Assembly: GCF_021134715.1 (NCBI RefSeq)
Contig: NC_060018.1
Span: 6,465,501 to 6,529,500, forward strand
Direction: 5' to 3'
DNA length: 64,000 nt
From: Daphnia pulex
Lineage: Eukaryota > Arthropoda > Branchiopoda > Diplostraca > Daphniidae
This document shows, piece after piece, positions 48,601-51,343 of this stretch; position 1 is the stretch's first letter, and each line of letters starts with the position of its first letter. The translations under genes and the position numbers were made by a program. The notes beneath the pieces were generated by a model that was given only the letters and a program-made list of their open reading frames with translations, ran no database searches and was not told the origin of the DNA.

Positions 48601-49090
48601 TGTTTTAATTTTTGGATTCTCTCTTCTCGTTGATTAATTTTCTTTAGTTCAGATTTGATTTCATTTTGCTCATGAGAAATTGCAACATTTTTTTTAGCTA
48701 AAGTAAACCAAGTAGGTTCAACTTGTGCATCAGTTGCCTGCTTCAAAGCTGGATTTTCATCTTCAACACCTTTACTGAGAATCTTCAATTTTTCTTCTAG
48801 TTGTGACTTTTGATGACACTCATGATCAGCTAACCAAGTTAGAGCTCCACAAATCAGACTTAGTGATTTACCCTTAATATAAAAATTGGAAACATTATTT
48901 TGTTATTTGCAAAAATAAGAGGACTGAATAAAAACAAGATTTAATTAAAAAACCTAAGACATACTGTTCCTGTTGGGCTTTCAAATATACCCAGTTTCCC
49001 TTGCTCAATACATTTGTACAGACTTTTCATAAAATCTAATTGAATAGGATAAGGTTCGAACGGAAATCGGAAACCCTCGGGAACATCCAT
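45607..49090 (-). CDS. DDX11: DDX11/CHL1 iron-sulfur DNA helicase
   Basis: A 5'-3' DNA helicase of the XPD family needed for sister-chromatid cohesion and for unwinding fork-associated structures. The first exon (48965-49090) starts [20 protein letters not shown] and ends SPTGT; the next (48417-48872) starts [16 protein letters not shown], so the Walker A motif spans an intron. Exons 48168-48349 and 47872-48106 carry [13 protein letters not shown] and the four cluster cysteines (QQLC, ERC, SSCPF, ACPYY). [14 protein letters not shown] is motif II and [14 protein letters not shown] is motif VI. The frame at 45719-45961 appears to end in intron; the true last exon is 45607-45654 after a TTAATTAG acceptor and adds 15 residues. 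The Lys/Glu-rich insert after motif I and the cysteine spacing separate it from FANCJ and RTEL1. It converges with PDCL3, with 59 bp between stops. Confidence 0.94.
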
Positions 49091-49272
49091 TGTAATAAAA
49101 CTGAAATGGACTACTGCTAGAAAACGTATGCATTGGCGCTTTTTGAAGTTTTCTACTTTTCAGAATTCAAGTAATCCAGTACCGATGCTGAGTTGCAAAA
49201 TCTACCAAATTTGCCTTAAAAACAGAGGGAGGACTGGAAGGAGGAGGGAAATTCGGAAAATTGAGGGGAGAC

Positions 49273-49340
49273 CAGAGCAATAGATACCTGGTCGGTTCTC
49301 GGCCGTGTTGGCTTCCCTATCCCGGTTTCAGGGTAAACGT
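49273..49340 (+). repeat. Left terminal inverted repeat of the THAP element
   Basis: 68 bp, reverse complement of 50934-51001 with a single C/T difference. The outermost 56 bases are identical. Confidence 0.95.
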
Positions 49341-49518
49341 GGTCCGATTTGGAAAAATTGATGAGCGCCTCTAGTGAGTGTGTCAGGTACTACGTGAAGC
49401 CAGCCAATCAGGAAGGGTCTATGAAAAACTCATTGACCAATCACAGCTTACTTTTCTACAAGAAGTGAACAAAATAAAAAGGTAGAAGTATCCAACTGTC
49501 AAACCTCTAGGTCTTTTC

Positions 49519-49634
49519 TAAGTGTCCCAACATTCTTACATTTTATTGTTTGGTTGTGTAAATTGTTTATTCTTTGTAAGTGTCCAAACATTCTTACATT
49601 TTATTGTTTGGTTGTGTAAATTGTTTATTGTTCC
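49519..49634. repeat. 58-bp tandem duplication
   Basis: Two nearly identical units start at 49519 and 49577 (TAAGTGTCC, then ACATTCTTACATTTTATTG). They sit inside the element, beyond the stop codon of the THAP gene. Confidence 0.9.
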
Positions 49635-49648
49635 GTTGACATAATACA

Positions 49649-50740
49649 CTACTTCTTGTTTTGAAAATGTACACTTTTCACATTATAATTTTCATTTGGT
49701 AGTCGATCCATCGAAATGCAAAAAATCGTTTGTTTAATTTGATCAAAATACCATGTCCAATTCTTTGGTACCATTGATGAAGTTACTAGTGACTGAAATG
49801 TCACAAAATTAGACTTGAAATTAGTAGAGCTTGCTTCCATAGAAGGTGATGTAACTGTCGAATCATCAATGACAACAGCAACATTTTCGTTCATTACATC
49901 AGGAAGTGGATCAAAAATTGCTTCTTCAGCAGCCTGGTGAGTGTCCATTGATTCTTGAATAGTAGAGGTAGCTTCCATAGAAGGTGATGCAACTGTCGTA
50001 TCTTCCATGACAACAGCAAGATTTTCCTTGATTGAATCTGGAAGTGGATCAAAAATTGCTTCTTCAGCAGCCTGGGGAATGTTGATTGATTCTTTAATAA
50101 TTTCCATGGAGGGTGCTATCAGATAAAATTTAAAGCAATTGCTCTTATAAATAAAATGTAACGAGAACTATTATCAATACCTGTACTGTCAAATTTTTTT
50201 CTCTTAGACGTAGTAGGTATTTTGTCTACTTTTGGTCGTTTCCTTACTGATGCATTGCTAGCATTTGTTTCCACTACAATACATATTTAAGAATTGCGTT
50301 ATTTGATATTAAACAAAATAAACATATTTAAAAATACCATTAAGGTTATTTCTCCATTTGAAACCATCAACATTTTGCATTGCTTGTCGACTAGGTGTAT
50401 CTAAAATGAAAATGGTTCAGTTTCTGTGCTTTACAGATTATACAGGAAATGTAATATCAATACCATTTATCAGAAAATGTTTGGGAATTGCTCCAGCATT
50501 ACGATTCCTACGTTTGAAAGGATGGAACACGTTCAAAATTTAAATCCCTGATTTGAAGTCACTTTCGTCAAAATGACGGGAGCAAATACGTGAGGTGCTC
50601 GTCAAATAACTACATGGAATTAGTTCTCGCCATTTAGATAATGAAGTTTTAGGAATTGCAAACAGGGTAACCTCGTTTTCTTTTTGATTTCCTTTGAAAT
50701 ATGTTGATTTACAACCAGGAACAGCACACCTGCCAACCAT
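49649..50740 (-). pseudogene. THAP-domain protein of the transposon, interrupted by one stop
   Basis: Four exons, 50464-50740, 50338-50400, 50181-50273 and 49649-50115, have matching phase-1 junctions and near-identical donors (GTATT), and form a 300-codon frame. Exon 1 starts MVGRCAVPGCKSTYF and has the THAP pattern: two Cys at the start, an invariant Trp in KWRELI, then CSRHF. FKRRNRNAGAIPKHF follows in the place of the closing AVPxxF motif. A TAA at 50540-50542 breaks the frame between CSRHF and FKRR. Exon 3 is basic (VRKRPKVDK, TSKRKKF). Exon 4 has a 46-residue unit twice, including AAEEAIFDPLPD. No transposase catalytic motifs were recognised. Unless the stop is read through or spliced out, only a 66-residue partial THAP peptide is made. 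Confidence 0.75.
49833..50108 (-). repeat. 138-bp in-frame tandem duplication
   Basis: Matching landmarks recur exactly 138 bases apart: GCTTCCATAGAAGGTGATG at 49833 and 49971, and GGAAGTGGATCAAAAATTGC at 49902 and 50040. It encodes two 46-residue units in the THAP protein's last exon. Confidence 0.9.
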
Positions 50741-50933
50741 TTTTACAGAAATTATGGTTAGGCTTCATTCACGTAATACACGATAATGGCCGCCGTATTC
50801 ACATATTACACAAAAATGGCCGCCGAAAGTATTATTTGAAAGTCAACGTCTTATCACTAGATGGCGCTGTTTCATTTTTACCACTTCACAACTTCTGACA
50901 AGCTCCGCCCTAAAATGTCTGAAAATCGGGGAT

Positions 50934-51001
50934 ACGTTTACCCTAAAACCGGGATAGGGAAGCCAACACGGCCGAGAACCGACCAGGTATCTATTGCTCT
51001 G
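50934..51001 (-). repeat. Right terminal inverted repeat of the THAP element
   Basis: Partner of 49273-49340. It lies about 190 bp upstream of the THAP start codon and may hold its promoter. Confidence 0.95.
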
Positions 51002-51343
51002 GGGAGACGTGAAATCATTGATCACGACTAACCGCTGATAAAAAGGCAAAAAGCCCTTCTAAGAAATTATAAGTAGGTTAAAGTTTTTATAAAATATAAT
51101 TGGAATTAGAATAAAAGACTTTTCGAGGGTTGGAAGGTCTAAAATACCCAGTTTTTTGCAATCGTAATATTCTGATTTTTGGTAATAACTAATAAACAAG
51201 ATGCAATTTGGTAATAAATAAGAATAGTCACGTAAAATAATTGACAAGTGTATTATTAATCAACCGAGTTTTTCTACTTACGTAGAAGTCGAATTACAGT
51301 TTTTTTTTTTCAGTATACTAAACACAATAGAAACATTCGCACA

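Follow-up and report, generated by a model that had tools for sequence, protein, structure and literature searches.

A non-autonomous P-superfamily element in Daphnia pulex and the host-gene DNA carried by its sister copies

Introduction

The P element of Drosophila is 2.9 kb long, has 31-bp terminal inverted repeats (TIRs) and makes 8-bp target-site duplications (TSDs) (PMC7776569); zebrafish Pdre2 also makes duplications of 8 bp (PMC10983969). A mixture of lengths is described for Galileo, a P-superfamily member in which most duplications are 7 bp and a few are 8 bp (PMC4168063), so a 7-bp TSD is known within the superfamily. For D. pulex, P families named PelementA1.1 to A8.1, together with NA9.1, were already published in 2010 (PMC2884549). 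They share host and superfamily with the family described here, which, compared by description only, may be one of them.

In Pack-TIR or Pack-TYPE elements, TIRs enclose a copied fragment of a host gene. PMC8277862 counts 370 animal Pack-TIRs in 100 genomes, mostly hAT and TcMariner and four of them multicopy, and adds one multicopy gene-carrying family in fly populations; multicopy gene-carrying TIR elements are described there as rare in animals. According to the same source, P elements in Drosophila captured genes when their transposase was artificially activated. Our literature search, which covered titles and abstract openings, returned no report of P-element captures in Daphnia.

The window analysed in this work is a stretch of 64,000 nucleotides of the D. 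pulex genome, located on the contig that we call C2. We describe a small transposon inside it, its full-length relative and its sister copies, some of which appear to have captured host genes.

Results

Structure of the window element

The element, 1729 bp long and without assigned strand, occupies 49273..51001 and was delimited by its TIRs, its TSD and its copies in the genome. An inverted-repeat search placed the left TIR (68 bp, plus strand, starting CAGAGCAATAGATACC) at 49273..49340 and the right TIR (68 bp, minus strand, one mismatch relative to the left) at 50934..51001. The computed arms were 69 nt, the extra nucleotide being a chance pair in the flank, and the true TIR is 68 bp. The tips are CA/TG, and a perfect, unstranded 7-bp duplication, GGGAGAC, lies directly outside them (49266..49272 and 51002..51008). 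A preliminary description made from the letters alone had reported these repeats with their single mismatch, the CA tips and the duplicated 7-mer, and all are present.

The surroundings of the insertion are compact. Between 49000 and 51400 the element occupies a short spacer separating two neighbouring genes, both on the minus strand. To its left a helicase-like gene begins, with its ATG near 49090. It may be of the DDX11 type; a PDB search with its first exon gave no match. The other neighbour is the end of a gene with matches to PI3/4-kinase and FATC domains, presumably TRRAP-like. Taken alone, the window element is ordinary.

Its gene, on the minus strand, is broken. Exon 1 (50464..50740), identified by PF05485 and by homology to exon 1 of the full-length copy on C7, is interrupted by a TAA at codon 67 (50540..50542), where the C7 copy has GAA. 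The stop lies upstream of the AIPKHF motif, which is AVPF-like, and thus before the conserved AVPF-type proline, so that the THAP exon is not intact; the open part still matches PF05485 (THAP) with E=9.6e-11. Homology to the full-length model places exon 2 at 50338..50400 and exon 3 at 50181..50273. The exon 4 remnant (49649..50115) holds two 45-aa repeat units and then an early stop directly after QNKK. The remainder of exon 4 is missing, as is every later exon, including the catalytic ones. The four-exon THAP gene proposed earlier is therefore real as regards its THAP domain and does not hold as a working gene, given the nonsense codon. A 200-aa D. pulex protein, LOC124209183, corresponds to exons 2-4 of this element type. 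It starts past the codon-67 stop, its record lists no THAP match, and it may stem from either the window copy or one identical copy, both of which lie on C2.

The codon-67 stop is found in 12 of the 31 copies with both ends paired, among them C3:6007971, which belongs to a different subfamily. In that copy (L016, C3:6007971-6009918) codon 67 is TAA and its sister copy L014 has GAA; either recurrent mutation or gene conversion would account for the second occurrence. The number of 45-aa (135-bp) repeats in exon 4 also varies, from 2 in the window copy to 4 in L023 and 6 in L018, as counted by eye.

A full-length relative and the superfamily

The preliminary description had called for longer copies with an RNase H-like domain. 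One full-length copy was found, at C7:3952755-3957776 (5022 bp, duplication TAAAAGG). Its gene model has 9 exons, with all introns GT-AG, and encodes 1264 aa with no internal stop. Three Pfam matches are above cut-off: PF21787 (TNP-like RNase H N-terminal, 9.9e-20), PF21788 (TNP-like GTP-binding insertion, 3e-14) and, at the N-terminus, THAP (PF05485, 6.2e-12). The C-terminal piece of the RNase H domain, PF21789, which holds the catalytic E, reaches 18.9 bits against a cut-off of 24; NQDPVE, at an exon end, is our by-eye candidate for this residue. The RNase H exon matches the Drosophila P transposase structure 6p5a with E=8.6e-10, in an alignment that covers both D regions as well as the D(2)H region. 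A search with the C-terminal 705 residues, in which the 7990 candidates sharing most words were scored, found three proteins, the best from Daphnia sinensis, named P transposase and 40% identical over 41%.

As the preliminary description had supposed, the transposase of the longer copy is thus of P type and not a non-P one. RNase H with the GTP-binding insertion, an N-terminal THAP domain, CA tips and 7- or 8-bp TSDs occur together in this family, as is expected of the P superfamily. Membership in the superfamily is well supported by the sequence because the C7 copy carries an apparently intact P-type transposase gene. PF12017 (Tnp_P_element) is absent from the Pfam matches of the full-length protein at E<=0.01, and the family is thus not closest to that model. 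Five other loci (L041-L045, on C11, C1, C8, C3 and C10) do match PF12017; other P-like families are therefore present in the genome.

Comparison with described relatives places these features in context. Like the Drosophila P element and its KP-type derivatives, the Daphnia family has THAP, an RNase H domain with GTP-binding insertion, CA tips and internally deleted copies. It differs from Drosophila P in its mostly 7-bp TSD (7 bp in 25 of 31 copies versus 8 bp in 3), its 68-bp TIR, its 5.0-kb length, the array of 45-aa repeats in the transposase and the unmatched PF12017. A complete THAP domain within a truncated protein, a trait of the KP type, is absent from the window copy and present in the sister copies L008 and L010. 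Galileo resembles the family in having THAP with a P-type transposase, 7-bp with occasional 8-bp TSDs and a palindromic target motif, and it differs in its long foldback-like TIRs and its TSD consensus GTATTAC (PMC4168063), whereas nothing beyond a T at -2 and an A at +2 stands out at the Daphnia sites.

Copies, duplications and empty sites

A 26-base TIR pattern (up to 3 mismatches) found 148 ends genome-wide, and none when read backwards; at least nine end pairs were spaced 283-284 bp. Sixty-six of the 148 ends were read for pairing, and 40 of 138 candidates were scored in the element copy search. The TSD count covers the resulting 31 paired copies, none of them miniature. All 31 start with CAGAGC and end with GCTCTG, and 28 have a perfect direct duplication: 7 bp in 25 and 8 bp in three (C1:3185917, C3:1643679 and C5:2206984). 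Three have none (C6:6595980, the outer copy at C7:1474233, and C10:2796204). Four single ends (C5:4072357, C6:6922036, C8:7015429 and C10:6366182) stand outside this count, as does L029, a diverged copy on C2 that has CCGCCAT on both sides and an altered right tip ending GCTCTT. The flanking 7-mers are thus duplicated in other copies, as the preliminary description had anticipated. Since 28 of 31 paired copies are duplicated and the pattern yields 148 ends versus 0 reversed, the TIRs and TSD are not due to chance.

Two copies nested inside sister copies serve as empty sites. Joining the flanks after removal of exactly 7 bp restores the sister sequence, with 71 of 73 bases matching the window copy in the first case; in the second, 73/73 match L031 and 68/73 the window copy. 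Removal of 5, 6, 8 or 9 bp leaves 42-55 matches of 73. The 25 seven-bp sites form a weak palindrome, with T at position -2 and A at position +2 relative to the centre; none of 5000 random draws from flanking DNA was as palindromic, and 3 of 5000 reached their information content. A nested insertion of another kind was seen in a 7.2-kb copy (L024, C3:11859307-11866555), where a 1290-aa open frame looks, by eye, like a non-LTR reverse transcriptase.

The window element itself and three other copies (together L001-L004) show no difference in any of the 1729 bp and have four different TSDs; one identical copy lies 20.5 kb from the window copy. Because three identical copies occupy other sites, the window copy moved recently, and since the identical copies carry the codon-67 stop, amplification needed no intact THAP protein from this copy type. 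Compared with C7, the window copy lacks about 3.1 kb, all catalytic exons included; the deletion breakpoints of sister copies L011 and L017 were aligned alongside. The shared sequence is 92.4% identical over the 5' 1195 bp, 86.5% in the repeat region and 97.7% in the last 256 bp. Judged from the first two values, the C7 copy is a relative and not the direct progenitor of the window copy.

Host-gene DNA in sister copies

Eight sister copies (C11:2607746, C6:6595980, C7:939611, C4:454516, C1:3185917, C7:1474278, C9:1283860 and C10:2796204) carry, between the TIRs of the family, 1.5-2.4 kb of two convergent host genes, one URB1-like and the other OSCP. The captured DNA is 96.8-98.6% identical to a parent at C11:2687996-2690371 (L066:483-2858), about 77 kb from the copy on the same contig. 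No TIR was found within the 4.3 kb examined at the parent locus, which runs on into the flanking exons of both genes on either side. It contains part of the first gene, named URB1-like because an upstream exon matches PF16201 (E=1.2e-12); its last exon gave no PDB match and no convincing Pfam match. The larger part of the OSCP gene (PF00213) lies there as well; once spliced, this part matches ATP synthase subunit O of D. pulex with 100% identity.

The junctions are informative. The captured stretch ends at one parental base, L066:2858, in all eight copies, and in the four aligned to the full-length element (L060, L064, L022 and L021) it rejoins the transposon at one base after a filler of about 27 bp. 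The left junction varies between structural classes. A shared right junction with differing left junctions suggests that a single capture took place and that additional deletions came later. A perfect 7- or 8-bp duplication surrounds the whole unit in six of the eight copies. Compared along its full length, the C11 copy is 99.3-99.8% identical to three of the other seven. Within one capture element, L021 (C10:2796204-2800071), about 1 kb of sequence almost equals its own reverse complement; this segment is repeated at dozens of sites at least (40 of 237 candidates scored).

A second capture, carried by C5:2206984 (L026, C5:2206984-2208832), matches a NUDT9-like gene on C10 (L070, C10:9416900-9419100; 1q33, E=1.2e-19; PF00293, E=5.5e-5) with 91% identity along about 1.19 kb. 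No TIR was found within the 2.2 kb examined at this parent. The captured DNA retains introns and was therefore copied as DNA, not from mRNA. Part of it is also found at C10:6365592-6365909 (L030), beside a single TIR end. For the filler of the C8 copy, a search of 766 bases gave matches to dispersed repeats or gene-family pieces and no one clean parent.

At the level of sequence, then, sister copies do hold host-gene DNA whose parental loci lie elsewhere. A host fragment between TIRs, with a separate TIR-less parent, is a property of these sister copies and not of the window copy.

Discussion

We regard it as very probable, close to certain, that an internal deletion gave rise to the window element, a non-autonomous P-superfamily member moved by cut-and-paste in trans by a P-type transposase. 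The earlier proposal that this is a young, non-autonomous member of a P-related family in a crustacean is borne out by the identical copies and by the transposase of the full-length relative. Transposase made elsewhere would bind the ends and excise the element, and a staggered cut of 7 bp, sometimes 8 bp, at insertion would produce the TSD. Supply in trans is presumed, the source possibly being the C7 copy, the only full-length candidate seen, or a close relative. Internal deletions and captures may both arise from faulty repair, by template switching, at excision or replication gaps; C3:1643679, which looks chimeric, with C7-like 5' and window-like 3' sequence, would fit such switching. Three observations stand against this explanation: the copies without a duplication (3/31), the sub-threshold PF21789 score and a C7 copy too diverged to be the direct progenitor.

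THAP domains occur outside P elements too, and Kolobok makes TTAA duplications. It could be argued that another THAP-bearing superfamily, such as Kolobok, is only P-like in appearance here, given this wider occurrence, a 7-bp duplication that differs from the Drosophila P value and the absence of PF12017 among the matches of the full-length protein. We give this almost no credence: in the full-length relative the TNP-like RNase H and GTP-binding insertion domains are recognised and the solved P transposase is matched, no TTAA duplications of the Kolobok type are found among the 31 paired copies, and Galileo, within the P superfamily, has duplications of 7 or 8 bp (PMC4168063). The Pfam domain match of the full-length protein largely rules a non-P superfamily out. 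Because Galileo has them too, duplications of 7 bp are no sign of the separate lineage suggested in the preliminary description; the short protein, offered as a second such mark, is the leftover of an internal deletion and no separate kind of transposase. The short THAP gene might instead be kept as a repressor that binds the ends and cannot cut, for which the KP protein of Drosophila P elements is the precedent (PMC7776569). In favour of this, an open frame of 302 aa that includes the complete THAP exon survives in two sister copies, L008 (C10) and L010 (C2), and dN is below dS over exon 1 in most lineage pairs. We nonetheless consider this role unlikely, since 12 of the 31 copies, the window copy among them, stop at codon 67 with THAP incomplete, the stop carriers include the identical L001-L004 and also L005-L007 (no difference in about 1060 bases compared), and within the stop-bearing subfamily the very few changes are all nonsynonymous (dN 0.005-0.009, dS 0). 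Stop-bearing and open copy types cannot be told apart by age, because L008-L010 are likewise young (0-1 difference). For the window copy, the codon-67 stop rules out an intact THAP repressor.

A different objection concerns the host-gene pieces, which might be coincidental later insertions or assembly chimeras. Our analysis used a single genome assembly, and among the eight URB1/OSCP copies, C6:6595980 and C10:2796204 have no duplication. Such an origin is hard to reconcile with the common parental end base in 8/8 copies and the common rejoining base in 4/4 of those aligned, with the perfect duplications around the whole unit in 6/8, and with a continuous parent that lacks TIRs, and we hold it to be very improbable.

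The host-gene captures, which lie outside the window, are the most interesting result of this work. As far as sequence can tell, P elements have captured genes here under natural conditions, and transposition spread one of these captures. It is likely that this D. pulex P family is Pack-type, with at least two intron-bearing captures, one amplified to eight places, and it may also have crossed Daphnia lineages. The surveyed Pack-TIRs are mostly hAT and TcMariner (PMC8277862), whereas the eight-copy case in Daphnia belongs to a P family. On the possible crossing of lineages, a D. magna protein (P0006) and the L023 gene model share 139 of 146 N-terminal residues (95%), and the host OSCP protein, a single yardstick at the protein level, is 86% identical between D. 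pulex and D. magna. The contrast may be taken as a lead for horizontal transfer between Daphnia lineages.

The family, which sits in an established model animal, is useful because an apparently intact transposase copy occurs in it together with several non-autonomous copies of identical sequence and with captures whose parents are known. In the eight-copy case, capture by faulty gap repair may be examined through one shared junction, several shifted ones and a known parent.
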